64,000 nucleotides of DNA, from positions 1,432,458 through 1,496,457 of the forward strand of contig NC_015152.1 of NCBI RefSeq assembly GCF_000190435.1, given 5' to 3'. The notes under the pieces are model-generated. The model was not told where the DNA came from and made no database searches. It saw nothing but the letters and a program-made list of their open reading frames with translations. Shown piece after piece: positions 3,869 to 63,627 of this stretch. The translations under genes and the position numbers were made by a program. Origin of the DNA: Sphaerochaeta globosa str. Buddy. GTDB taxonomy: Bacteria > Spirochaetota > Spirochaetia > Sphaerochaetales > Sphaerochaetaceae. Numbering within the stretch: position 1 is the first letter of the stretch; every line of letters starts with the position of its first letter.

Positions 3869-5068
3869 TTATGTCTGAATACGCAACTGACCATCAGGTC
3901 CAAAGTCAAAAACCTGTGTATCGGCAATTGCCTGTTGAAGCAACGGCTCAATGCCCATCGTCACGTAGTGCTCAGTCACTATCTGTTTGTTCGGACGGAC
4001 CAACGGGTGCTTGGGGCTGAAAATTACACAGCAATCCTCATAGGGGAGAATGGAAGTTTCGTAGGTCCCGATGCGCTTGGCAAGGTCCATGATTTCCTGC
4101 TTGTTCATACCCACCAAAGGTCTGAGGACCAATTGATCACTCATACTATCGGTAAAGGACATGCTCTCCAGTGTTTGGCTGGCTACCTGACTGAGGGCTT
4201 CTCCGGTAACGATGCAATTACCTTCCTGCTGCAACGAAATTGCATTGGCTACCTTCATCATGGAGGCGCGGAACATCAAGGTAGTCTCATCTTCCTGGCT
4301 ATGCTGCTTTATCCACAATTGGGCCTCGGTGAAGGGAACCACATGCAACCTCGTCCCCTGAAGGTAGGGGGCTATGATCGATGCCAGTGTCTTCACCTTT
4401 TCCAAGGCTTGGTCGCTGGTGTACGGATAGGCGTGGAAATAGATGCACTCCATTTTCAGTCCCCTCTGGGCCATGCGATAGGCTGCAACAGGACTGTCGA
4501 TGCCTCCTGAAAGCAGAAGCATGCCCTTGCCGGCAGTGGTGACGGGAAGTCCCCCCGGTCCGCTTTTTGCAGAGGTGAAGAGGTAAGCCTTGTCCCTGAT
4601 CTCGCAATTGATCGTCATGTCCGGATTCTTTACATCGACGGTAAGGTTTGGATGAACGCTGTGGACCACCTCACCAAGTATGCAGTCAATTTGGTAGCTG
4701 TTTAGTGCAAAATTCTTGTCAGCCCGTTTGGTAATGGACTTGAAGGTGCCGACACCCTTGCTGAAGGGTTCGTCCTCCATCAGAAGACGGGCAGTCTCTT
4801 TGATGATTTCAATATCCTTGGCGCAGCGAAGACACCTCGAATACCCCACCACTCCGAACGTGGTACTGAACGCCCTTTCTACCGTTTCCTTTGGGCAGCT
4901 GTTCTCTATTTCAAAGAAAATTCGGCCTTTCTGCTTGGAGACTTGGGTGCGGTATCCCTTGAGCTTGTTCTTGATATTGATCTTAAGCCGCTTTTCAAAA
5001 AAATCACGGTTCAAACCTTTGAGGGAGATTTCTCCCAATCTAACTAAATACAATGTAGCGTCGTTCAT
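3869..5068 (-). CDS. thiI: tRNA 4-thiouridine synthase ThiI (no rhodanese domain)
   Basis: 399 residues. An N-terminal ferredoxin-like plus THUMP region (about 1-170) precedes the PP-loop SGGIDSP at 187-193, which adenylates the target uridine. The segment PYEDCCVIFSPKHP (Cys346/347) corresponds to the conserved ThiI cysteine. The chain stops at this point, so the C-terminal rhodanese domain of the 482-residue E. coli protein is absent, as in many Gram-positive and spirochaete ThiI proteins that take sulfur directly from a dedicated cysteine desulfurase. That partner is the gene just upstream: its TGA overlaps this ATG (ATGA at 5065-5068), which fixes the start. Confidence 0.93.
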   Translation of the reverse strand: MNDATLYLVRLGEISLKGLNRDFFEKRLKINIKNKLKGYRTQVSKQKGRIFFEIENSCPKETVERAFSTTFGVVGYSRCLRCAKDIEIIKETARLLMEDEPFSKGVGTFKSITKRADKNFALNSYQIDCILGEVVHSVHPNLTVDVKNPDMTINCEIRDKAYLFTSAKSGPGGLPVTTAGKGMLLLSGGIDSPVAAYRMAQRGLKMECIYFHAYPYTSDQALEKVKTLASIIAPYLQGTRLHVVPFTEAQLWIKQHSQEDETTLMFRASMMKVANAISLQQEGNCIVTGEALSQVASQTLESMSFTDSMSDQLVLRPLVGMNKQEIMDLAKRIGTYETSILPYEDCCVIFSPKHPLVRPNKQIVTEHYVTMGIEPLLQQAIADTQVFDFGPDGQLRIQT

Positions 5069-6204
5069 GCGTTCTCCCGGTAAAGTTGTGTAATTGCTCC
5101 AACCAAGGCTTGGACCTCTAGCAGGGTGGTTTCCTTGGATAGTGATATGCGGATGCTGTTCTTTGCAAGCTGGGGTGAGAACAACATCGAGGACAATACT
5201 CCCTGCGACTTCTGCTTGGCGTTGTTGGAACACGCCGATCCACTGGAGACACAGAAACCTTGGTCGAACAGCATTCGGGTGAATACTTCGCTAGGGAGTG
5301 AAGGATGGGCCACGTTCAGGATATAAGGCGAACAATCCTTCTGCGGTGAAAGAATGGGTAAAAAGGCCAGATGCTCGCGTAGATATGCATTCAGGCTCAT
5401 CACCTGATCATAATTGCTCTGCAGATGCAGATACGCATCCTTGATAGCCTGATGCATCGCTGCAATTCCCCCGAGATTTTCGGTACCCGCCCTCAGCCCT
5501 TTCTCCTGGTCCCCTCCGCGTGAAAGGCTTTCGATGCCGGCATTGGTGTTGTAGAGCAACCCTACACCCCGTGGTCCATGCAGTTTATGGGCACTGAAGG
5601 ATGCACTGTCCACCCCAAGGGAGCGAAGGTCGAACCCGATTTTTCCCAAAGCTTGGGTTGCATCGGTATGGAAGTGAATCTTGCGGTTGTTGTGCTCTTT
5701 TTCGAAAGAACGAACCACCTCGACCAAAGTTGCAATATCCTGTACTGAACCAACGACATTATTGACCAGCATGACACTGACAAGTCGTGTATCCGCTGTC
5801 AGGGCTTTTAGCAAATCCTCTTTTTGGACGAATCCCTTAGGCGCTGGAAGTATGACTATCTTCCAACCCAACTGCTTCAGCAATCGTGCATATTCGGAGA
5901 CCGAGGGGTGCTCAATGCCGCTGAGGATGACTTGGCCTTTGCGTTCCTTCCAAATAAGGCTGTTCAGGATGATTGCATTGGCTTCGGTCGCCCCACCGGT
6001 GAATGTCAAGGTTTCTGCTCCGACACCCAGCTGTGAGGCGATGTCCTGTCGAATCTCCTCGAGTAAGGCTTTTGCTTCTCTTCCTTCCCGATGGAGGGAT
6101 GATGGATTGCCTCTATAGTGTTGTACCACCTTCGTATATGCGCCAAGTGAGGATTCACTTATTGCAGTGGTGGCTGCATTATCAAAATAACGTATCTCGT
6201 GCAT
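5065..6204 (-). CDS. Cysteine desulfurase (NifS/IscS-like), ThiI partner
   Basis: 379-residue class V PLP enzyme. FDNAATT starts the chain; SFSAHKLHGPRG carries the PLP lysine (K207); SSGSACSNNAKQ carries the persulfide cysteine (C325). It transfers sulfur from cysteine to acceptor proteins. Overlap with thiI indicates it supplies sulfur for tRNA s4U. The ATG at 6204 was chosen because MHEIRYFDNAATT matches the family N-terminus. There is no convincing Shine-Dalgarno site, and a predicted promoter (TTGCAA-17-CACAAT) ends 7 bases before this ATG, so the mRNA may be leaderless. It is divergent from aroB. Confidence 0.92.
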   Translation of the reverse strand: MHEIRYFDNAATTAISESSLGAYTKVVQHYRGNPSSLHREGREAKALLEEIRQDIASQLGVGAETLTFTGGATEANAIILNSLIWKERKGQVILSGIEHPSVSEYARLLKQLGWKIVILPAPKGFVQKEDLLKALTADTRLVSVMLVNNVVGSVQDIATLVEVVRSFEKEHNNRKIHFHTDATQALGKIGFDLRSLGVDSASFSAHKLHGPRGVGLLYNTNAGIESLSRGGDQEKGLRAGTENLGGIAAMHQAIKDAYLHLQSNYDQVMSLNAYLREHLAFLPILSPQKDCSPYILNVAHPSLPSEVFTRMLFDQGFCVSSGSACSNNAKQKSQGVLSSMLFSPQLAKNSIRISLSKETTLLEVQALVGAITQLYRENA

Positions 6205-6211
6205 GGCCCAC

Positions 6212-6240
6212 ATTGTGCGACAATGCAAGGATTTTTGCAA
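6212..6240 (-). promoter_or_regulatory. Predicted promoter of the cysteine desulfurase-thiI operon
   Basis: On the minus strand TTGCAA (6235-6240), 17 bases, then CACAAT (6212-6217). Only 7 bases separate the -10 box from the ATG at 6204, so transcription would start at or next to the start codon. Read from sequence alone. Confidence 0.4.
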
Positions 6241-6261
6241 GCACGGCCTACGTGTTGGTTC

Positions 6262-6291
6262 TTGTCTTGCACCCCTGCCGTAGGGTATAAC
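6262..6291 (+). promoter_or_regulatory. Predicted promoter of aroB
   Basis: TTGTCT (6262-6267), 18 bases, TATAAC (6286-6291). The -10 box ends 6 bases before the aroB ATG at 6298, again implying a leaderless transcript. It overlaps no other gene and is divergent from the promoter of the cysteine desulfurase. Confidence 0.4.
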
Positions 6292-6297
6292 AAGGCT

Positions 6298-7362
6298 ATG
6301 AAGATATTAACAACCACTACCCTCGACCAAGGTAAAACAACGGATATTCTGCTTGCTGACGATTTGAAGGATTTATCAACTCACCTCGGAAGTTATGGTC
6401 GTTCGGTCATGTGGGTTTTTGATACCAATACGGCCAAATTATTCAAGCAGCTGCCCCCGGCCCATGTCGTTCTGGAGAGTGGGGAGAGTTCCAAGAATCT
6501 CGCTTCGCTTGAGCGAATCCTGTCCACCTCCCTGGATGAAGGATTGGCACGTGACGGTCGCATCATTGGTTTCGGCGGTGGTGTGGTCTGCGACCTCTCC
6601 GCCTTTGCTGCTTCTGTGTATATGCGTGGTTGCCGGCTCACCCTTGTTCCCACCACGTTGCTTGCGATGGTCGATGCCGCAGTAGGGGGGAAAACAGCGG
6701 TAGATTTTCGGGGAATGAAAAACATGGTCGGCTCGTTCTACCCAGCCAGCGAGGTGCTGGTATGCATCGATACACTGAGAACGCTCAGCGACAAGGAGTT
6801 TCTCAACGGTCTTGCCGAGGTTATCAAGCACGCCCTGCTCAGTCAGAATGAGGAGCTGTATAAACTCCTCCTGGTGAAAAAGAACGAAATACTCAGTCGC
6901 GATCCTAAAACCCTTGCAACCTTGGTTGAGCTTTCCTTGGATGTAAAGAAGTGGTATATCGAGCAGGACCCAACCGAAACCAAAGGCATCAGGCAGATAC
7001 TCAATCTTGGACATACCTTTGCCCATGCCCTGGAGTCTTCCTCCCACTTCGGTAGTTGGAGCCATGGCGCTGCCGTTGCATGGGGCTCTTGCCGGGCTTT
7101 GGAAGCAGGCCTTGCCTTGCAGGTAACCGAAAAAGCTTATGCAACAGGTGCTGCAAAACTTTTTAAGAGCTATGGCTACGATATCGATCACCGTATCGGC
7201 CGCGGCGATTGGATTGAATTCCGTGACCACCTGCTCAAGGACAAGAAAAAAGCGGACGGCAAGGTCCTTTTTGTCCTCCTGGAAGGGCAGGGAAAAGGCG
7301 TGCTCCGTCCGCTTGAAATGCCGTTGATCCAGCATCTCGTAATAGCAAAGCCGATCTTCTAG
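6298..7362 (+). CDS. aroB: 3-dehydroquinate synthase
   Basis: 354 residues, the normal family length. The NAD-binding segment IIGFGGGVVCDLSAFAAS, PTTLLAMVDAAVGGKTAVDF and the zinc-ligand segment NLGHTFAHALE are all present, as is GLAEVIKHALL. It converts DAHP to 3-dehydroquinate, the second step of the shikimate pathway, in the cytoplasm. It stands alone between divergent and convergent neighbours; its stop is 1 base from the convergent hrpA stop. No clear ribosome site precedes the ATG at 6298, and a predicted -10 box lies 6 bases upstream. Two other shikimate/chorismate-related genes (aroH, an aroA homologue) lie elsewhere in the window, not in the same operon. Confidence 0.95.
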   Translation: MKILTTTTLDQGKTTDILLADDLKDLSTHLGSYGRSVMWVFDTNTAKLFKQLPPAHVVLESGESSKNLASLERILSTSLDEGLARDGRIIGFGGGVVCDLSAFAASVYMRGCRLTLVPTTLLAMVDAAVGGKTAVDFRGMKNMVGSFYPASEVLVCIDTLRTLSDKEFLNGLAEVIKHALLSQNEELYKLLLVKKNEILSRDPKTLATLVELSLDVKKWYIEQDPTETKGIRQILNLGHTFAHALESSSHFGSWSHGAAVAWGSCRALEAGLALQVTEKAYATGAAKLFKSYGYDIDHRIGRGDWIEFRDHLLKDKKKADGKVLFVLLEGQGKGVLRPLEMPLIQHLVIAKPIF

Positions 7363-11319: not shown

Positions 11320-12588
11320 ATGCTGATACGATACAAACAAGACGAACTAGGAAAGACCCTGCCTGTTGCCAACATCTACACCCAATCGGAACATAAGATT
11401 CCGGCCCACTTGCTTGACAAGGACGCTTTATGGGCAATTAAGAAGCTGCAAGCCAGCGGTGCTGAAGCCTACCTGGTAGGGGGCGCCGTTCGGGATATGA
11501 TGTTGGGAACCATCCCCAAGGATTTCGATATTGCCACCAGTGCATCTCCGCGCCAAATCCAGAGATTATTCTGGAATGCCAGAATCATAGGAAAGCGCTT
11601 CAAGCTGGTGCACCTCGTGTTCAAGGACAAAGTCCTGGAGGTCTCAACCTTCCGTAGCGGAGAGGAAGCGATGGATGGGAACAACAATGTGTTTGGTTCC
11701 ATCGATCAGGATGCAAAGCGCCGAGATTTCTCCATCAACAGTTTTTATTATGACCCTTCCACCGGACAATTGCTTGATTTCAACCATGCCATGGAGGATT
11801 TCAAGAAAAAGAAGATCAGTTCCATCATAGACTTGGACGAGTCCTTCAAGGAGGACCCGGTACGAATGGTGCGGGCTATCAAATATTCCGTTTCCACCGG
11901 GTTCTCGCTGCGTTGGAGCGTAAAAATGGCCATCCGCAAGTATTCCAACGAATTGTCACGTGTATCGACCAGTCGGTTAACTGAGGAAGTGAACAAGATT
12001 TTGGCAAGCGGTCACAGTTGCGAAATCTTCAATGAGCTGAAACGGTATAAGCTTCTCGTCTTTATGCTGCCTGCCTTCTCCATCTACAGCAGTTATCCCC
12101 AGGTCCAATCAAGCCTCAAGGAACTTGACAAGCAAGTACTGCTTGCCAAGCAGGGAAAGGGGAGTGAGGTGTTGTTGGCTGATATGCTCAAGGCTTTAGT
12201 GGATCCCTTGATTGTCTTCACCGATGAAGCTTTGACCATCGACCAGCGTTTCAAAGAGACCTTCAGGCAGATCAAGGTGCTCATCAGCCCCATGACGCCT
12301 TCCAATTATGACATTGAACTGGCGAGCGAACGCCTGTTGTGCGAGCGTGGATTCAAGACTCCCAGAAACTGTGTCCGAGTACAGCGTCCCGCCAATCGGA
12401 TTCCTGGTCGCAGACCTCCTCTTGCTACCGCCCAGCGTAAAGCAAGGCCTGAAGTATCGGCTGAAGGTGCAAAGAAACGGAGAACCAGAAACCGGGGGCC
12501 CAAGAAGAGCACGGGATCTTCAGCGAATTCTCAAGCACTGAATGAACAGAGCGTTGCTCAGACCAGTGCCGAGGTGCATGATCTTTAA
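11320..12588 (+). CDS. pcnB: Poly(A) polymerase / CCA-adding nucleotidyltransferase family
   Basis: 422 residues. Nucleotidyltransferase head YLVGGAVRDMMLGTIPKDFDIATSA with the metal-binding DxD, then RRDFSINSFYYD and EDPVRMVRAIKYS, as in PcnB. The C-terminus is strongly basic (RRPPLATAQRKARP..., KKRRTRNRGPKK), which matches the RNA-binding tail of PcnB more than a tRNA CCA-adding enzyme. It probably adds 3' A-tails to RNA to promote decay; a tRNA nucleotidyltransferase role cannot be excluded from sequence. The ATG at 11320 follows GAGAG; longer upstream starts would run through the hisS leader. Its stop overlaps the next, convergent gene by 4 bases. Confidence 0.87.
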   Translation: MLIRYKQDELGKTLPVANIYTQSEHKIPAHLLDKDALWAIKKLQASGAEAYLVGGAVRDMMLGTIPKDFDIATSASPRQIQRLFWNARIIGKRFKLVHLVFKDKVLEVSTFRSGEEAMDGNNNVFGSIDQDAKRRDFSINSFYYDPSTGQLLDFNHAMEDFKKKKISSIIDLDESFKEDPVRMVRAIKYSVSTGFSLRWSVKMAIRKYSNELSRVSTSRLTEEVNKILASGHSCEIFNELKRYKLLVFMLPAFSIYSSYPQVQSSLKELDKQVLLAKQGKGSEVLLADMLKALVDPLIVFTDEALTIDQRFKETFRQIKVLISPMTPSNYDIELASERLLCERGFKTPRNCVRVQRPANRIPGRRPPLATAQRKARPEVSAEGAKKRRTRNRGPKKSTGSSANSQALNEQSVAQTSAEVHDL

Positions 12589-13451
12589 CCCCATTCCTCG
12601 ATTTCGATATTGACACTGGAGACAAAAATACTGCCGTACTTCTCTAAGCTGTCGGCGATATATTCCTGTAGTTCTCCCAGTGTAGTCGAGATTTGGTGTT
12701 GCATGGGGACTCTGAGTTTGACCGTAAGTGCATAGCCTTCAGCTTTGATCTGAACCTGTACCCGCTTTACCTTGATTTGGGAATCAAACTCATCCAGACA
12801 ATGGGCAACCATTTGCGTCAGGGCCGCTTCGCTGACCGTCACTTTACTGTATTTTGAAAATTCAGGACGTACAATGGTTTTCTCAAAGCTGACATTTCTC
12901 CGCTTGAAGGGAACCCTGTTTCCTTTCTTATTGAGAAATACCCGCATGGAATCGTAGACTATTTGAGGATAATTCCGGGTAATCTCAATGGAAGGGACAG
13001 GAATGACGTGCTTGCCTTCCGAGTAGCGGATACGCATCGCTGTCTCAATCTGTTCCTTGGTGGCAATATCTTCAATTCGAAATAGTTTCTCCGGTTGGGG
13101 GAGGTTGAGACGAGAAGCAATTTTATACACCATCTTCTCACTGGTTCCGATGATTAATATCTTGTGGTATTTCTCTTTAGTTAATGCTTCCCTGACTTGT
13201 TTCTGATGATCCAAATCATCGAAAACAGCCGTTCGCACCGCAGAAAGGACGTTTTCCTCACGTTTGGCTGATTTACCCGCAAGAATACGATCCCCTCGTA
13301 TAAGAAGACCGTCATCTATGATTATGTCTATATGATATTTCTGGGCAACCAGCTTGGAACGAAAGCTTTTGCCGGTTCCGCTCTTTCCGACCAGCGCATA
13401 TACCTTAATTCCCTTCAGTTTCCAGAAGGCATACTTAAAAACTCGATTCAT
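12585..13451 (-). CDS. P-loop ATPase with C-terminal Asp23/Gls24-like region
   Basis: 288 residues, function unknown. A Walker A motif GKSGTGKS is at about 22-29. The middle contains IIIDDGLLIRGDRILAGKSAKRE and LIIGTSEKMVYKIASRLNLP, which look like a small nucleotide-dependent kinase or regulator core. The last 90 residues (VSEAALTQMVAHCLDEFDSQIKVKRV... to VNIEIEEW) have the alternating pattern of Asp23/Gls24 envelope-stress proteins; this is my reading, not a search result. The ATG at 13451 is preferred because a perfect TATAAT (13459-13464) overlaps the in-frame ATG at 13460 and ends 7 bases before 13451. The upstream region now carries the ISL3 element. Confidence 0.7.
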   Translation of the reverse strand: MNRVFKYAFWKLKGIKVYALVGKSGTGKSFRSKLVAQKYHIDIIIDDGLLIRGDRILAGKSAKREENVLSAVRTAVFDDLDHQKQVREALTKEKYHKILIIGTSEKMVYKIASRLNLPQPEKLFRIEDIATKEQIETAMRIRYSEGKHVIPVPSIEITRNYPQIVYDSMRVFLNKKGNRVPFKRRNVSFEKTIVRPEFSKYSKVTVSEAALTQMVAHCLDEFDSQIKVKRVQVQIKAEGYALTVKLRVPMQHQISTTLGELQEYIADSLEKYGSIFVSSVNIEIEEWG

Positions 13452-13458
13452 GGTTTTC

Positions 13459-13464
13459 ATTATA
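13459..13464 (-). promoter_or_regulatory. Predicted -10 box of the P-loop/Asp23-like gene
   Basis: Perfect TATAAT on the minus strand, 7 bases before the ATG at 13451. No good -35 box at 16-18 bases (best TTCTAT), so the call is tentative. Confidence 0.3.
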
Positions 13465-27972: not shown

Positions 27973-29141
27973 AAGGTTCTCTCCTACACCTCATGGTATC
28001 CAGAAAACTAGGGTATCGAGGAAGCCGAGCAGCAAAAAAACGAATACTTTTCAATGTCCTACTCATCAGTTTGGTCGTTGCTTCCTTGGTGTTTGCCCAG
28101 ATATTTGTCGTGTCTATGAGCCGCGGCATAGCCGACAAGTACGCACTCTTGGGAAATGGCCATCTGCAGCTGCATGAAAAGCCGGGTCTTGAGCTTGCTC
28201 CCATCGAGGGACTGCTCGATACCCAGTTGGTAGCACAAAGCTTTGCTCTGATTTACAGCCCAAAAGCAAACAAAATGGTACGCCTCAAAGGGGTAGGCCC
28301 CTCCTATTTCAATGCTATGCGTCTTTCCCAACTCACGATGGGAGAGCAAGAGAACATCGAAACAACCAATCTCCCGCAAATCCTGCTCAGTACAACCTTG
28401 GCTGAATCACTGGGCGTGGGTATCTCGGACCGGGTAGCCCTCATGCTCGTCAATCAAAGTAGTATCCGTCCGCAATTGTGTGTGATTCGCAATCTCTATG
28501 ACTCCGGCTACCAGGAACTTGATGCAAACTTAGTCTTTTGTGATTACGATCTCATGCACAGACTCTTTGCCGGGAAAGAAGAAACCTACTATGAGTTGCT
28601 GGTGGAACAGACTCTGACTGAAACCATCAAGCAGCATCTTGCCCTCGAAGGGTATATGGTAACCTCCTGGGATGAGGAGAACTACAGCGTATCTACGAAT
28701 CTCAATACGAGTCGGCAGGCTGTGCTTGGGGTAATGATGGTGGTGGCCATACTCTGCGGGTATTTCATCAGTGAACTCTCCCGGGAGTTGGTGGAGGATG
28801 ACAAGCACAAAATCGCAATGCTTACGCTGCTTGGGGCCAGAAAAGTGTTCATCCGAAACGTATATTTCTCAACAGTTATGCTGGTTACTCTTATTTCGGT
28901 CATAGCGGGAACGGTGTTGGGTATCGTGCTGGCAAGCAACCTCGGCCCGATTCTCGCCTATGTAGCAGAGAAGTCGATCCCCTCCCTTTCCTATTATCTG
29001 CTGGATTTTTCCATAGTCATTCCCCCGAAGGATATTCTCACCATTATTCTGGTATTGGTCGGTGTAAGCATGGCTTCAGTGCAGTGGAGTCTCAGAAGGG
29101 TGAAGGTAATTGAACCACTTTCCTGTACACACTTTGACTAA
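27969..29141 (+). CDS. FtsX/LolE-type ABC transporter permease
   Basis: 390 residues, TTG start within a 4-base overlap with the ATPase gene. Four membrane segments in FtsX order: VLLISLVVASLVFAQIFVV near the N-terminus, then VLGVMMVVAILCGYFISEL, VMLVTLISVIAGTVLGIVLAS and DILTIILVLVGVSMASVQ. The DDKHKIAMLTLLGARKVFIRN segment is the cytoplasmic coupling loop. It pairs with the permease at 26121-27290. It lacks nothing obvious; which of the two corresponds to LolC or LolE cannot be decided. Confidence 0.86.
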   Translation: MKGSLLHLMVSRKLGYRGSRAAKKRILFNVLLISLVVASLVFAQIFVVSMSRGIADKYALLGNGHLQLHEKPGLELAPIEGLLDTQLVAQSFALIYSPKANKMVRLKGVGPSYFNAMRLSQLTMGEQENIETTNLPQILLSTTLAESLGVGISDRVALMLVNQSSIRPQLCVIRNLYDSGYQELDANLVFCDYDLMHRLFAGKEETYYELLVEQTLTETIKQHLALEGYMVTSWDEENYSVSTNLNTSRQAVLGVMMVVAILCGYFISELSRELVEDDKHKIAMLTLLGARKVFIRNVYFSTVMLVTLISVIAGTVLGIVLASNLGPILAYVAEKSIPSLSYYLLDFSIVIPPKDILTIILVLVGVSMASVQWSLRRVKVIEPLSCTHFD

Positions 29142-29161
29142 GTGTGGTTTTCAGCTATACT
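29134..29161 (+). promoter_or_regulatory. Predicted promoter of rnz
   Basis: TTGACT (29134-29139), 16 bases, TATACT (29156-29161), then 6 bases to the ATG. This is the best of the predicted leaderless promoters in the window. It overlaps the last codons of the upstream permease. Confidence 0.6.
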
Positions 29162-29167
29162 GACTGC

Positions 29168-30091
29168 ATGAATTTTGAAGTATTTGTTCTGGGGACCAGC
29201 GGCATGATGCCTCTTCCCAATAGGTATCTTACCAGTGCTATGGTTCGCCGGGATGGGGAACTCTTTCTCTTCGATTGTGGAGAGGGGACCCAGGTTTCGT
29301 TGAAGATGTTGAATCTCAAATGGAAGAAGATCCATTCCATATTCATCAGTCATATGCATGCCGACCATGTCACCGGACTTCCAGGGATCCTGATGCTTTC
29401 AAGCCAGGTCGACCGAAATGAACCCTTGACTATTTACGGCCCTGCAAGACTGAAGGAGTATATCGATGCCAATCGACGTATTCTGGATATGTATATCAAC
29501 TATGAAATTGTTGTGAAGGTTGCAGAGAGCGGCGTTATCCTCGAGACTGATGATTTCACCATTTCTGCCTTCCCTTTGCATCACACAAAACCTTGTGTGG
29601 GATATGTAATGCAGGAGAAAGATCGTCCGGGGGAATTTCATCCCGAGCAGGCCCAACAGTTGGGAGTTCCCATGGGACCGATGTGGGGAAAACTGCAAAA
29701 AGGACTTTCGATTACCCTGGGCGACGGAACGATCATAGAAAGCCATCAGGTAATCGGACCGAAGCGGGAAGGACGGAAATTCAGTTATGTCACCGATTCC
29801 GTGTATCTTCCTTCAATTGCTGAGCATGTAAAAAAGAGTGATCTCTTACTCTGCGAAGGCATGTTTACTGCCGATATGGCTGAGACGGCCTATGAGAAGA
29901 AGCACATGACAGCCGATCAAGCTGCCCGTATTGCCAAGGAAGCTGAGGTTGCGCAGCTCGGCTTGTTGCATTACAGCCCCCGATACAGCGACCGCGAGCT
30001 AAAATACTTGCTCAAGGATGCAAAAAAAGTCTTTGGTCCGACAATCCTGACCAAAGACCGTATGTGTTTTGATATTCCGTTGAAAGACTAG
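29168..30091 (+). CDS. rnz: Ribonuclease Z
   Basis: 307 residues. Metallo-beta-lactamase fold with FDCGEGTQVSL, the zinc motif SHMHADHVTGLPG, a distal CEGMFTADMAE and the C-terminal HYSPRYSD, as in RNase Z. It matures the 3' ends of tRNA precursors; both tRNA genes in this window lack an encoded CCA, which fits RNase Z processing. The ATG at 29168 is preferred over an in-frame GTG at 29144 because a good promoter's -10 box ends 6 bases before it. Its stop overlaps the convergent neighbour by 4 bases. Confidence 0.93.
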   Translation: MNFEVFVLGTSGMMPLPNRYLTSAMVRRDGELFLFDCGEGTQVSLKMLNLKWKKIHSIFISHMHADHVTGLPGILMLSSQVDRNEPLTIYGPARLKEYIDANRRILDMYINYEIVVKVAESGVILETDDFTISAFPLHHTKPCVGYVMQEKDRPGEFHPEQAQQLGVPMGPMWGKLQKGLSITLGDGTIIESHQVIGPKREGRKFSYVTDSVYLPSIAEHVKKSDLLLCEGMFTADMAETAYEKKHMTADQAARIAKEAEVAQLGLLHYSPRYSDRELKYLLKDAKKVFGPTILTKDRMCFDIPLKD

Positions 30092-33476: not shown

Positions 33477-34109
33477 ATGAGCAAAGCGATTATATGCACA
33501 GGTGGAGGAGCTCCGAGTCTTCTCCCTTTTGGACTTATAGAGGATGGTGATTACATCGTAGCAGCGGATAGCGGTTATGATACTGCACGTGCATTGGGTT
33601 TATCGGTTGACCTGTGCGTCGGGGATTTTGATTCAACCCTCTTCCCATCCGAAATACAAAGCAAAGCCCATGAGCGAAGCCTGAGGGACAAGGATGAGAG
33701 CGACACCGAGCTTGCAATAAAAAAGGTACTGAGCAAAGGCTTTCAGCAGTATTTGCTGATTGGGGGGGGAGGGTTTCGCATGGATCACCTCTTTGCTACC
33801 TTTGCCCTATTCGATCTCTACGGACCGCCTGAAGCATGGTATACAGGATATGAGGCTGTGCATCTTGTGAGAGGGTACCAGCGTTTTGAGGGTCTGAAGG
33901 CAGGCCAGCATGTCAGCCTCTTTCCTGCAAGTTTTTCCAAGGATGTTTCGGTAACAGCGAAACAGTTGCAGTGGCCCCTGGAAAATTATCGGTTGTCGAT
34001 GGGAACCCTTTCTCTCTCGAACCGTACAACCGATACGTTTTTGGATGTATTTGCCAAGCAAGGGGGAATGCTCTTTGTCAGCTTCCCGGTTGCAGACAAG
34101 CCAAGGTAG
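33477..34109 (+). CDS. thiN: Thiamine pyrophosphokinase
   Basis: 210 residues. The family motifs ADSGYDTARALG, VGDFDS, DKDESDTELAIKKVL and GGGGFRMDH (metal and thiamine/ATP site) are in order, followed by a beta domain with LSLSNRTTDTFLDV. It converts thiamine and ATP to thiamine pyrophosphate in the cytoplasm. Divergent from the DUF1015 gene and followed after 16 bases by a small membrane protein gene. No TPP riboswitch is seen upstream. The start ATG at 33477 lacks a strong ribosome site (GTGAGAAAAT). Confidence 0.9.
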   Translation: MSKAIICTGGGAPSLLPFGLIEDGDYIVAADSGYDTARALGLSVDLCVGDFDSTLFPSEIQSKAHERSLRDKDESDTELAIKKVLSKGFQQYLLIGGGGFRMDHLFATFALFDLYGPPEAWYTGYEAVHLVRGYQRFEGLKAGQHVSLFPASFSKDVSVTAKQLQWPLENYRLSMGTLSLSNRTTDTFLDVFAKQGGMLFVSFPVADKPR

Positions 34110-34119
34110 ATGGTATTCT
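34090..34119 (+). promoter_or_regulatory. Predicted promoter of the small membrane protein-aroH pair
   Basis: TTGCAG (34090-34095), 18 bases, TATTCT (34114-34119), 6 bases before the ATG at 34126; overlaps the end of thiN. Implies a leaderless transcript. Confidence 0.35.
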
Positions 34120-34125
34120 CTGTCT

Positions 34126-34467
34126 ATGTTGCAGACCAGACGCTTGCTGGCGTTCTCCAGCCGGGTACATACCTACACACTCCTGTTATATCTATTTTTC
34201 TTTCTTGTGTACTTGTTGGGCAGTTTTTTTTCTGTGACAGAAAACTTTGTTTCCCTTCTCCAATTTTTCTTGTATTTCATCAGCTGGACCAGTTTGTTGT
34301 TCGGCTTCTGGATATTGGTCTTTTCCTGTATTGTGTGGGCGGCGGACCGGGTATTCCCGCTTTCTGCCGTGCTGCTGACTATGGTAAGAATGCTCTGCAT
34401 ACTTGCCTTGAGTTTTGTGGTAGCCATTTTGGAGACCTTGTTCCAGCGAGGTCTGATCGTCAGTTGA
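34126..34467 (+). CDS. Small membrane protein of unknown function
   Basis: 113 residues with three strongly hydrophobic segments (TLLLYLFFFLVYLLGSFF; LLQFFLYFISWTSLLFGFWILVFSCIVW; LLTMVRMLCILALSFVVAILE) after a short basic N-terminus (MLQTRRLLAFSSR). No family recognised. No Shine-Dalgarno site precedes the ATG; a predicted -10 box ends 6 bases upstream. An overlapping frame (from 34110) has no membrane or protein-like pattern and is rejected. aroH begins 12 bases after its stop, so they probably share a transcript. Confidence 0.6.
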   Translation: MLQTRRLLAFSSRVHTYTLLLYLFFFLVYLLGSFFSVTENFVSLLQFFLYFISWTSLLFGFWILVFSCIVWAADRVFPLSAVLLTMVRMLCILALSFVVAILETLFQRGLIVS

Positions 34468-34479
34468 GTGAGGAGTAGT

Positions 34480-50203: not shown

Positions 50204-51040
50204 TCACTCCTCGCTTTGTGATCGTTCATCTGCTTTGATTTCCTCCCAAAGCCGATCCATTTCACTCAGGTTGTCCTTATGCAATGCAATGCCTTGGTCT
50301 TGGGAACGTTTGTATAACGCATTAAAGCGTCGTTTCATTTTCTGATTCGATCGATGAAGTGCCAATGAGGGGTTGAATCCAAGGTAGCGGGCAAGATTCA
50401 CCGCAGCAAACAACAAATCTCCCAACTCCATCTCCAGGTCCTCGTTCTTGTCCTGTTGATGCTCAAAAGCAGTGTTGACTTCCTTAAGTTCTTCTGCAAC
50501 TTTCTCAAATACCCCTTGGGCATCGGGCCAATCAAAGCCAACCTTACGAATTTTCTGCTGGATTTCATTAGCCATTTCCAAAGGGGGAAGGGAAGGGGGA
50601 ACCCGGCTGAAGAAATCGTCTTTCTCATGAGTCTTTCCTTCCACATTTTGTTTGATGGCATTCCATACATCGATGACTTCTTTGCTGTTTGAGACTTTTT
50701 GGTCGGAAAAGACATGCGGGTGTCGGCGGATAAGCTTCTCGCAAACCTGATTCAGTGCTTCTATGCTTGCACTTGCATCTGTTTCTTGATGCATTTCCAG
50801 GAGCATCATGGCATTGAGCAACACATCACCAAGTTCTTCCTGTTGTCCCTCGTCATCATCAGAAAGGATAGCATCGAGGTACTCATAGGTTTCATCGATG
50901 AGATGGGTAGAGACTTGTTTGGGGCTCTGTTCCCTGTCCCATGGACAGCCTTGTTCACTGCGTAGCAGGCTGACGATAGCAAAGAGTTGCATCAGGGCAT
51001 CACTAAGGGTTGTTTTCTTTTCAAGGGTGAAGTCAATCAT
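50204..51040 (-). CDS. mazG: Nucleoside triphosphate pyrophosphohydrolase MazG
   Basis: 278 residues with two MazG repeats. First: GCPWDREQSPKQVSTHLIDETYEYLDAI with EELGDVLLNAMML. Second: EKVAEELKEVNTAF with EMELGDLLFAAVNLARYLG. These Glu/Asp sets bind Mg2+ and hydrolyse NTPs to NMP plus PPi. Typical length is 260-280. The ATG at 51040 matches the family N-terminus (MIDFTLEKK); there is no good Shine-Dalgarno site, and a -10 box TATACT ends 7 bases before it. Divergent from the YtrA-type gntR. Confidence 0.92.
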   Translation of the reverse strand: MIDFTLEKKTTLSDALMQLFAIVSLLRSEQGCPWDREQSPKQVSTHLIDETYEYLDAILSDDDEGQQEELGDVLLNAMMLLEMHQETDASASIEALNQVCEKLIRRHPHVFSDQKVSNSKEVIDVWNAIKQNVEGKTHEKDDFFSRVPPSLPPLEMANEIQQKIRKVGFDWPDAQGVFEKVAEELKEVNTAFEHQQDKNEDLEMELGDLLFAAVNLARYLGFNPSLALHRSNQKMKRRFNALYKRSQDQGIALHKDNLSEMDRLWEEIKADERSQSEE

Positions 51041-51047
51041 GCATACG

Positions 51048-51076
51048 AGTATACCTGTTCCCGGCAATCTTGAGAA
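51048..51076 (-). promoter_or_regulatory. Predicted promoter of mazG
   Basis: Minus strand TTCTCA (51071-51076), 17 bases, TATACT (51048-51053), 7 bases before the ATG; implies a leaderless transcript. The -35 box is weak. Confidence 0.35.
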
Positions 51077-56540: not shown

Positions 56541-58256
56541 TTAGTTGTCTTCCCTGTCCTCATCCTTGTAACGCATCATGTCTGCAAGGGAGAAGGTATC
56601 GCTGTCATTATCCTCATGGATGTATTTTGCAATCTCAGACTGCTGAGAACGCTTGACCATCTCCTTGACGGAGAGAGAAAGCTTCTGAGTAGTGGGGTTG
56701 CATTCTACAACCATAGCAGTGATAGGCTCACCAACTACGAACTTCTTGAGGATCTCATCGGTATACTCTTCATCCGGTCCAACCAAGTTGTACTTGCTGA
56801 TCAGGCCTTCAATGTCGCCAATGACCTTTACGAAAACGCCAAAGTCAGTCACGTTGGTGATAACACCGCTGATGGTGCTGAACTTCGGATAGTCGTGGCG
56901 AAGAGTCTGCCAAGGATTGCCCTCAAGCTGCTTTACGCCAAGGCGGATTCTGCGGTTTTCGGGTTCGACGCGGATGACTACGACTTCAATCACATCACCT
57001 TCTGCACAGAAAGAAGCCATGTTCTTGACCTTTTTGGTCCAGGAAATGTCATCAATGTGCAAGAAACCGTCAATCCCTTCCTCGAGGTTGACGAATGCAC
57101 CGCTATTGGTGATCTTCACAACCGGCTTGGAGAGTGTCATTCCGACAGGGTAACGATCAACAATGGTATCCCATGGGTTTTCCTCAAGCTGCTTAAGGCC
57201 GAGGGAAACACGCTTCTTATCCAAGTCATAGCCAAGAACCTTTGCTTCGACAACATCACCTACATCCAGGACTTCCTTGGGGTTGTTGACCCTCTTGGTC
57301 CAAGACAGCTCGGAAATGTGGGCAAGACCCTCGATACCAGGCTCAATCTCAATGAAAGCACCAAAGGTGGTAATCTTGGTTACCGGAGCCTTGATGGTAT
57401 CACCGACATTGTACTTCTGCTCGAAGGTTGTCCAGGGATCTTCCTGCATGTGCTTCAGCGAAAGATTAATCTTCTGTGTCTCAGGATCGATATTGATGAG
57501 TCTGAGCTGTACAACCTGACCCTTCTTTACAAAATCCTTGGGACGGGTGACATGGCCCCAGCTCATGTCGTTGATATGCAACAGTCCGTCAAAACCACCA
57601 AGGTCGATGAAAGCTCCGAAGGAGGTAAATGATTTGACCACACCTTCGACAACGTCACCGATCTGTACGGTTGAGAAGAACTTTTCTTTATTTTCCTTAA
57701 TTTTCTGGTCAAGATACTCACGTCTATTTACCACGCTCTTGAGCTTGGTACCGCCGTGGAACTTGTCAATGATGAAGTAATCTGTTACTCCGATCAATGT
57801 CTCAGGTTCCTCGACACGAACAACGTCAGCCTTGGAGAGGGGGCAGAACCCCTTGTACTCGCCTCCGAGATCAACCTCGAAGCCACCCTTGATTACTTTC
57901 TCAAATTTGCCCAAAATCGGAGACCGGTTTTCAGACGCAGCCTTCAATTCATCAGTGCGTTCCTTGAAATCGGCGCGCTTCTTGGAAACGACGATCTGGC
58001 CGCCCTTCCCTTCCTTATTGATGATGACGACTTTTACTTCTTCACCAACTTCGGGAATAGATGCGAATTCATCACGAGAGATTCTTCCCTCGCTCTTGTA
58101 ACCGACATCCACGAATACATACTCGTTGTTTACCTGGACAACAGTACCGGCCACGAGCTGACCGTCTTCGATTCCATCAAGAGATTTAAGATACTCCTCC
58201 TGCAGCATATCCTGCATTTTGGTCTTCTTTTCATCCATTTCTTGTTCTTCAGCCAC
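56541..58256 (-). CDS. rpsA: 30S ribosomal protein S1
   Basis: 571 residues with six S1 RNA-binding repeats. Repeats begin around GQLVAGTVVQVNNEYVFVDVGYKSEG, then GDVVEGVVKSFTSFGAFIDLGGFDGLLHINDMSWGH, GDTIKAPVTKITTFGAFIEIEPGIEGLAHISELSW, GMTLSKPVVKITNSGAFVNLEEGIDGFLHIDDISW and a last ISGVITNVTDFGVFVKVIGDIEGL. It assists translation initiation on structured leaders. GTG start after AGGAG (7-base spacing). The acidic tail DEDREDN is at the end. Follows cmk by 30 bases, an order common in many bacteria. Confidence 0.96.
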   Translation of the reverse strand: MAEEQEMDEKKTKMQDMLQEEYLKSLDGIEDGQLVAGTVVQVNNEYVFVDVGYKSEGRISRDEFASIPEVGEEVKVVIINKEGKGGQIVVSKKRADFKERTDELKAASENRSPILGKFEKVIKGGFEVDLGGEYKGFCPLSKADVVRVEEPETLIGVTDYFIIDKFHGGTKLKSVVNRREYLDQKIKENKEKFFSTVQIGDVVEGVVKSFTSFGAFIDLGGFDGLLHINDMSWGHVTRPKDFVKKGQVVQLRLINIDPETQKINLSLKHMQEDPWTTFEQKYNVGDTIKAPVTKITTFGAFIEIEPGIEGLAHISELSWTKRVNNPKEVLDVGDVVEAKVLGYDLDKKRVSLGLKQLEENPWDTIVDRYPVGMTLSKPVVKITNSGAFVNLEEGIDGFLHIDDISWTKKVKNMASFCAEGDVIEVVVIRVEPENRRIRLGVKQLEGNPWQTLRHDYPKFSTISGVITNVTDFGVFVKVIGDIEGLISKYNLVGPDEEYTDEILKKFVVGEPITAMVVECNPTTQKLSLSVKEMVKRSQQSEIAKYIHEDNDSDTFSLADMMRYKDEDREDN

Positions 58257-62489: not shown

Positions 62490-62927
62490 TCATGCTTCCA
62501 GCACAAAGGTAACCGGTCCATCATTCGTGTAGGAAACGTCCATATGTGCTCCAAAACGACCACTGGCCACTGTATATCCCATTGCCCTAAAGAGTGACAG
62601 AGCCGCTTCGTATAAGGCTTCCGCCTCTTTGGGATCTGCCGCATCATCATAGGAAGGACGATTGCCCTTGCGCAGGTTAGCCAACAACGTAAATTGGCTT
62701 ACTACCAATAATTGTCCGCCCACCTCATCGAGTGCTTTATTCATCTTGCCCAGGTCATCGGAGAAAAGACGTAGCTTCACTATTTTTTGGCATAACCAGG
62801 AAAGATTTTGGTGTGTATCACTTTTCCCAAAACCCAAATATACCAACAAGCCATGCTCAATACTCCCAACCATGTGTTGGTCAACAGTAACGTGAGCATT
62901 CTTAACTCGTTGGATGACTGCTTTCAT
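62490..62927 (-). CDS. dtd: D-aminoacyl-tRNA deacylase
   Basis: 145 residues. MKAVIQRVKNAHVTVD start, the catalytic GSQFTLLA-type segment (LLVVSQFTLLANLRKGNRPSY) and the C-terminal NDGPVTFVLEA that closes the D-amino-acid pocket. It hydrolyses D-aminoacyl-tRNAs (for example D-Tyr). Its ATG overlaps the rpe stop by 4 bases (ATGA). Usual length for the family. Confidence 0.96.
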   Translation of the reverse strand: MKAVIQRVKNAHVTVDQHMVGSIEHGLLVYLGFGKSDTHQNLSWLCQKIVKLRLFSDDLGKMNKALDEVGGQLLVVSQFTLLANLRKGNRPSYDDAADPKEAEALYEAALSLFRAMGYTVASGRFGAHMDVSYTNDGPVTFVLEA

Positions 62928-63592
62928 TGCCTAGCTTTGTCCCACATCGCCTGGATAAAACCAGAGCGGTCTTGTTCGCAGAAAAATGCGCTACCACAAA
63001 CAGCAACATCCGCACCACGTTCGGCGATCATGTTTACCGTCGATAGGTTGACGCCACCGTCGACACTCAGGAGATACTTGTATCCCTTTTGGGTTCTGAT
63101 GGATGCAAGTTCACTGATCTTTTCCAAGGTTGAGGGAATAAGGCTTTGACCGCCGAATCCTGGGTTGACTGTCATTATCAGAATTAGATCAACCATATCC
63201 AGGATGGGCAGGATTGATGTAATCGACGAGGATGGTATGAGTGAAACCCCGGCTTTGCATCCGCTGTCCTTGATCATCTGAAGCGTTCTATGCAAATGAA
63301 CGGAAGCTTCTGCATGTACGGTGATATAATCGCTGCCACTCTGCGCAAAATGGGTAATATAGCGTTCTGGCTTATCCACCATGAGGTGAGTATCGAATAC
63401 CAAATCAGAATGAGAGCGCAAGTCCTTGATGAACTTTGGGCCGAATGTAATATTGGGTACAAACATGCCATCCATGACATCAAGATGAACCCACTGTGCA
63501 CCGCTTTTGTTAATGCTTTCAACTTCCTCGGCAGTACGGGAAAAATCAGCGGAAAGCATGCTTGGAGCTATAATCAGAGAAGTTTTTTCCAT
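62924..63592 (-). CDS. rpe: Ribulose-phosphate 3-epimerase
   Basis: 222 residues, TIM barrel. APSMLSADFS, WVHLDVMDGMFVPNITFGP with catalytic Asp, HLMVDKPERYI, MTVNPGFGGQSLIPSTLEKI and the C-terminal VDGGVNLSTV. It interconverts ribulose-5-P and xylulose-5-P in the pentose phosphate pathway. The ATG at 63592 is preceded by AGGAGT only 1 base away, too close for normal use, and a -10 box TATAAC ends 6 bases upstream, so the mRNA is probably leaderless. It overlaps dtd by 4 bases. Confidence 0.95.
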   Translation of the reverse strand: MEKTSLIIAPSMLSADFSRTAEEVESINKSGAQWVHLDVMDGMFVPNITFGPKFIKDLRSHSDLVFDTHLMVDKPERYITHFAQSGSDYITVHAEASVHLHRTLQMIKDSGCKAGVSLIPSSSITSILPILDMVDLILIMTVNPGFGGQSLIPSTLEKISELASIRTQKGYKYLLSVDGGVNLSTVNMIAERGADVAVCGSAFFCEQDRSGFIQAMWDKARQ

Positions 63593-63598
63593 ACTCCT

Positions 63599-63627
63599 GT
63601 TATAGCAGGTAGCCGGCTGTTTTGCAA
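63599..63627 (-). promoter_or_regulatory. Predicted promoter of the rpe-dtd-recA unit
   Basis: Minus strand TTGCAA (63622-63627), 17 bases, TATAAC (63599-63604), then 6 bases to the rpe ATG; implies a leaderless transcript. Confidence 0.45.

Follow-up and report, generated by a model that had tools for sequence, protein, structure and literature searches.

Leaderless mRNAs are translated through direct binding of a 70S ribosome or of an initiator-tRNA-loaded 30S subunit, and in the leaderless genes of mycobacteria and Deinococcus 6-7 nt separate the -10 box from the start codon. Leaderless genes are already on record in spirochaetes, where they have been predicted in several genomes, mapped in Leptospira and reported in Borrelia. 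The survey that described TA-led genes, recognized by a TANNNT box ~12 bp upstream of the start as counted from the first T, found 6 of 18 Spirochaetes genomes positive with a mean of 3.9% of genes (1.8-6.9%), next to averages of 19% in Actinobacteria and 39% in Deinococcus-Thermus (Zheng et al. 2011, PMC3160421). By dRNA-seq, ~440 genes of Leptospira interrogans have 5' ends at most 10 nt from the start, 170-184 of them exactly at the start (PMC5243855), and leaderless transcripts are stated to occur at high frequency in Borrelia burgdorferi, for which sequestration of the anti-Shine-Dalgarno sequence near bS21/bS18 has been proposed (PMC10618245).

We describe here a class of genes in Sphaerochaeta globosa that resembles the TA-led genes (PMC3160421) in box position, lack of a Shine-Dalgarno site and excess over dinucleotide shuffles, and that goes beyond them in presenting a -35 box, a pyrimidine at position -1 and conservation in orthologues. 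L. interrogans is likewise a spirochaete, of a different lineage, and its RNA ends were measured whereas ours are predicted from sequence; B. burgdorferi is a spirochaete of another family. As in mycobacteria (PMC4633059) and Deinococcus, leaderless initiation would operate here beside Shine-Dalgarno initiation, although those bacteria devote a larger share of their genes to it. The literature searched yielded no paper combining Sphaerochaeta and leaderless, and no relevant paper on leaderless mRNA in Treponema; what is new is the Sphaerochaeta lineage, the evidence from the -35 box and the -1 base, and the retention of the arrangement in individual genes across 22 genera. We consider it very probable that sigma-70-type promoters make leaderless mRNAs in this lineage, as a conserved second initiation mode beside the Shine-Dalgarno one.

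Near-start promoters in the window

The window, a 64,000-nt stretch covering positions 1,432,458-1,496,457 of the 3,316,466-bp single-contig genome of S. globosa str. Buddy, holds seven genes for which a first-pass annotation had quoted promoter strings close to the start codon, and all seven strings and their spacings were found in the sequence as claimed (Table 1). Distance is given throughout as the number of nucleotides between the end of the -10 box and the start codon, distance 6 placing the first T of the box at -12. When -10 and -35 boxes were scored with fixed weights chosen by hand, the promoter 6-7 nt before the ATG outscores every other position 0-30 nt upstream in 7 of 7 genes, the cysteine desulfurase promoter with its CACAAT box scoring lowest (4.8) and the other six genes reaching 6.2-8.8.

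Table 1. Promoter elements and genes discussed in the text (window coordinates; the 34126 gene is named after its first position)
Feature	Positions	Strand	Remarks
Cysteine desulfurase -35 box TTGCAA	6235..6240	-	sequence
Cysteine desulfurase -10-like box CACAAT	6212..6217	-	7 nt to ATG; weakest of the seven
Class-V aminotransferase / cysteine desulfurase	5065..6204	-	divergent from aroB; Pfam Aminotran_5
aroB -35 box TTGTCT	6262..6267	+	sequence
aroB -10 box TATAAC	6286..6291	+	18-bp spacer; 6 nt to ATG
aroB, predicted leaderless	6298..7362	+	Pfam DHQ_synthase
P-loop gene -10 box TATAAT	13459..13464	-	7 nt to ATG at 13451; holds second ATG (13460)
P-loop protein, predicted leaderless	12585..13451	-	weak ABC_tran match, below Pfam cut-off
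rnz -35 box TTGACT	29134..29139	+	sequence; overlaps last codons and stop of upstream gene 27993-29141
rnz -10 box TATACT	29156..29161	+	16-bp spacer; 6 nt to ATG; score 8.8, best of 0-30 nt
rnz (tRNase Z family), ATG start	29168..30091	+	predicted leaderless 5' end 29168; Pfam Lactamase_B_2
34126 gene -35 box TTGCAG	34090..34095	+	within 3' end of upstream gene 33477-34109
34126 gene -10 box TATTCT	34114..34119	+	18-bp spacer; 6 nt to ATG
34126 gene, 113-aa protein, predicted leaderless	34126..34467	+	no Pfam match; family-conserved
mazG -35-like box TTCTCA	51071..51076	-	retained as TTCTCAAG in two orthologues
mazG -10 box TATACT	51048..51053	-	7 nt to ATG
mazG, predicted leaderless	50204..51040	-	Pfam MazG
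Best match in the genome to ribosomal protein S1 (rpsA)	56541..58256	-	TIGR00717, 556 bits, slightly below the 577-bit cut-off
rpe -35 box TTGCAA	63622..63627	-	sequence; retained in several orthologues
rpe -10 box TATAAC	63599..63604	-	17-bp spacer; 6 nt to ATG
rpe, predicted leaderless	62924..63592	-	Pfam Ribul_P_3_epim

Gene starts were called with a simple dicodon caller that is blind to upstream signals, and the calls were left uncurated. These plain calls failed for four of the seven window genes, the starts of rpe, cysteine desulfurase and the P-loop gene being displaced and the 34126 gene remaining uncalled. The latter is a real gene: in a 22-genus family sample, 28 of the 41 genomes have matches to its frame that begin at residue 1. 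Two ORFs that a caller may prefer overlap it, 34110-34478 on the forward strand and 34173-34427 on the reverse strand. In the P-loop gene a second in-frame ATG (13460) lies inside TATAATG, 9 nt before the one at 13451, which orthologues favour; the caller chose 13460, though this codon falls outside the transcript expected from the P-loop promoter. The gap between aroB and the cysteine desulfurase gene (6204-6298) measures 93 bp and accommodates two near-start promoters back to back, and in most of the family-sample genomes the orthologues of the two genes adjoin.

Spacing, pairing and the base before the start codon

We extended the analysis to 40 evenly spaced 20-kb stretches; together with the window these amount to 864 kb, 26% of the genome, with 777 usable genes. 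Across these, TANNNT boxes number 40 at distance 6, 9 each at distances 4 and 5, 14 at distance 7 and 11 at distance 8; the count at distance 6 compares with 12.3 (maximum 23) in shuffles, and 29 of the 40 fall among the 257 genes that lack a Shine-Dalgarno match, defined as a match of at least 4 nt. Strict promoters, that is TTG-N3-(16-18)-TANNNT-(6/7)-start, occur 26 times, whereas 300 dinucleotide shuffles gave 1.44 on average and 7 at most. In a wider set that accepts promoters scoring at least 6 at 6-8 nt, and nearby in-frame ATGs as alternative starts, 53 genes distribute as 33, 14 and 6 over distances 6, 7 and 8, while the remaining distances up to 16 hold 0-6 each. No 4-nt Shine-Dalgarno match is present in 21 of the 26 genes with strict promoters and 44 of the 53 in the wider set. 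An unsupervised EM search without promoter prior, run on non-internal genes lacking a Shine-Dalgarno match, returned TAttgT/TAtagT, mostly at 6 and 7. The claim of the first-pass annotation that the tight spacing is unlikely by chance is thus borne out in the 26% of the genome covered, where the excess at 6-7 bases takes the form of a sharp peak made up mostly of genes without Shine-Dalgarno sites; its "6 or 7 bases" stands with the refinement that 6 is the peak, and 7 and 8 are its tail.

Two other origins of this peak were considered and rejected. Chance AT-richness is ruled out by the shuffles and by control ATGs, a promoter of the wider-set kind preceding 6.05% of called start ATGs versus 1.03% of intergenic and 0.38% of other genic ATGs. 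In-frame TAA or TAG stop codons read as false boxes are dismissed because 53% of the boxes at distance 6 are paired with a TTG -35 box over a 16-18-bp spacer, a share that is 0-20% at most neighbouring distances, and because many of the boxes are of the types TATACT, TACxxT or TATxxT. A special tie to divergent genes was likewise dropped: 14 of the 26 strict-promoter genes are divergent, a proportion that does not differ significantly from that of other non-internal genes (p=0.14). Among the called starts of this genome, leaderless GTG and TTG starts number 0 of 48 and 1 of 35, respectively. Among the 25 strict-promoter genes that lie outside the window are some with Pfam matches to NAD-dependent DNA ligase, signal peptidase II, AIR carboxylase, a CCA-adding-type enzyme, LptC and response regulators, and the leaderless mode therefore appears to carry housekeeping genes.

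For genes close behind an upstream neighbour, the near-start promoters may be real and much of the translation may also come from read-through operon mRNA, in which case the leaderless transcript would be one of two forms. The gaps to same-strand upstream genes are only 26 nt for rnz and 16 nt for the 34126 gene, both with -35 boxes inside those genes, and 3 of the 26 strict-promoter genes lie within 30 nt of the gene upstream. Read-through copies, however, would have no usable Shine-Dalgarno site, and most strict-promoter genes are divergent or well-separated first genes, so that we regard this dual-transcript explanation as unlikely.

The leaderless reading has to be set in a genome whose Shine-Dalgarno system is intact. 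The genome holds four copies of the 16S end TGGATCACCTCCTTTCT with its unaltered anti-Shine-Dalgarno, 67% of genes have a Shine-Dalgarno match, and neither an altered 16S 3' end nor genome-wide Shine-Dalgarno loss, the marks of lineages that have abandoned the signal, was found; leaderless initiation is therefore a second mode and not the main one. A bS21 gene is present in the genome. The earlier statement that operon-internal genes have Shine-Dalgarno sites reduces to a tendency, a match of at least 4 nt preceding 78% of internal genes and 59-60% of first or divergent ones.

Where the +1 base is a purine, RNA polymerase generally favours a pyrimidine at -1, and a promoter whose transcript begins with the A of the ATG should accordingly have C or T as the base before the ATG. 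A pyrimidine is found at this position in 21 of 21 strict distance-6 promoters and in 52 of 53 genes of the wider set, versus 242 of 368 (66%) Shine-Dalgarno starts (binomial p=6.6e-9), 64 of 89 starts with a promoter 10-31 nt away and 52 of 108 genic non-start ATGs with a chance promoter. The pattern was first spotted in 21 of the 53 sites, and the remaining 32 have a pyrimidine in 31 cases. This preference fits a predicted transcription start on the A of the ATG.

The same figures bear on the proposal that promoters further upstream give these genes normal leaders, on which translation begins without Shine-Dalgarno contact, for example through S1 and unstructured leaders, the near boxes being AT-rich look-alikes. 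About one third of called genes indeed lack a Shine-Dalgarno match, most of them also lacking a near box, and an rpsA homologue is present. Yet dinucleotide shuffles reproduce neither the spacing peak nor the pairing with -35 boxes, the -1 base is a pyrimidine in all but one of the wider-set sites, and in none of the seven window genes does any position within 30 nt outscore the near promoter, which makes this proposal highly improbable.

Conservation in orthologues and distribution in other genomes

The rnz gene was compared over 76 distinct upstream regions from Spirochaetales with proteins 62-91% identical, a Spirochaetales MAG standing at 91% and named Sphaerochaeta genomes at 80-82%. TANNNT lies 4-9 nt before the start in 72 of the 76, the -1 base is a pyrimidine in 71 and no Shine-Dalgarno site is present in 66; some relatives start with GTG at the same box spacing. 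The -35 box reads TTGACT or TTGATT in the 14 closest relatives, one relative excepted. For the other six genes, orthologues were taken from the 41-genome, 22-genus family sample, and the box adjoins the same start in most of them. A strict TANNNT at 5-9 nt is found in 17 of 19 orthologues of the 34126 gene; among the 29 orthologues compared for each of the other genes it is found in 20 for the P-loop gene, 16 for rpe, 14 for mazG, 12 for aroB and 3 for cysteine desulfurase, the weakest of the set. The strict pattern misses many aroB and rpe orthologues that have TATAAC or TATAAA variants at the same place, aroB orthologues retaining an GGTATAAC-like -10 box, and the CACAAT of cysteine desulfurase is retained in three same-genus orthologues. 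The mazG orthologues without a strict box have Shine-Dalgarno sites or AT-rich leaders, an apparent turnover in which some genera would have put a Shine-Dalgarno site in place of the box. These counts are non-independent through shared ancestry, and the spacing stays while the surrounding sequence changes. Judged from these alignments, the near-start promoter arrangement is inherited gene by gene across the Sphaerochaeta family.

The alignments also speak against the idea that the true translation starts lie further downstream and that the promoters give ordinary leaders: start calls are uncertain and some genes have alternative in-frame starts, but proteins align from residue 1 in relatives for rnz, the P-loop gene, mazG, the 34126 gene and aroB (close relatives), leaving this the least probable explanation of all, with hardly any weight.

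The same pipeline was applied to 400 kb each of other genomes (300 kb for E. coli) with 100 shuffles, the spirochaete families f2, f3 and f14 being placed by kinship. Strict promoters at 6/7 nt number 10 versus 1.55 in shuffles in the f3 genome (2.8 Mb), and 5 versus 0.19 in the GC-rich f2 genome. In contrast, 400 kb of the genome from f14, a distant member of the phylum with 28% GC, gave 1 versus 1.65, and 300 kb of E. coli K-12 gave 0 versus 0.57. The signal therefore belongs to at least several families of class Spirochaetia and is no product of the pipeline. The -1 pyrimidine preference is not visible in the f3 genome (12 of 17). In the f2 genome (G046) near boxes peak at 6-7 nt, with a second group at 9 nt (8 boxes, 5 of them with a TTG -35 box), and in the AT-rich f14 genome (G158) TTG-paired boxes cluster ~28-31 nt before starts.

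Proposed mechanism and extent

The promoter anatomy, the non-random spacing, the missing Shine-Dalgarno sites, the -1 pyrimidine and the conservation support a model in which the first base transcribed from ordinary vegetative sigma-70-type promoters (TTGNNN, 16-18 bp, TANNNT) would be the A of the start codon. Initiating there, directly after a pyrimidine, RNA polymerase would make a leaderless mRNA, and ribosomes would initiate at its 5'-terminal AUG without Shine-Dalgarno contact; we infer both the position of the RNA 5' ends and the ribosome pathway from the sequence evidence. The mode would serve mostly first genes of transcription units, several of them of essential type.

The excess over background amounts to ~38-47 of 777 genes, or 5-6%. 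This proportion is a floor because the caller, used as it stood, failed on four of the seven genes in the window, and at least ~5-6% of genes, or ~1/10 of the first genes of transcription units, is probably an underestimate of the leaderless share. The first-pass annotation had called a second initiation mode common in this lineage, which holds at this frequency and does not extend to a main mode. We entertain, tentatively and as a rather doubtful extension, that the leaderlessness of particular genes, above all rnz, has been kept under selection since early Spirochaetia for the different translational control that 5'-AUG initiation would offer, rather than being a neutral outcome of compact promoters.

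Overall, these results place a sizeable conserved class of predicted leaderless genes in a lineage of spirochaetes whose Shine-Dalgarno system is intact, a class that includes the essential-type genes rnz, ligA, lspA, purE and that of the CCA-adding enzyme. Start-codon annotation stands to improve, several true starts having been missed by a caller that ignores the near-start promoter. Finally, the gene list is comparable between genera, so that the question of why particular genes stay leaderless becomes testable.
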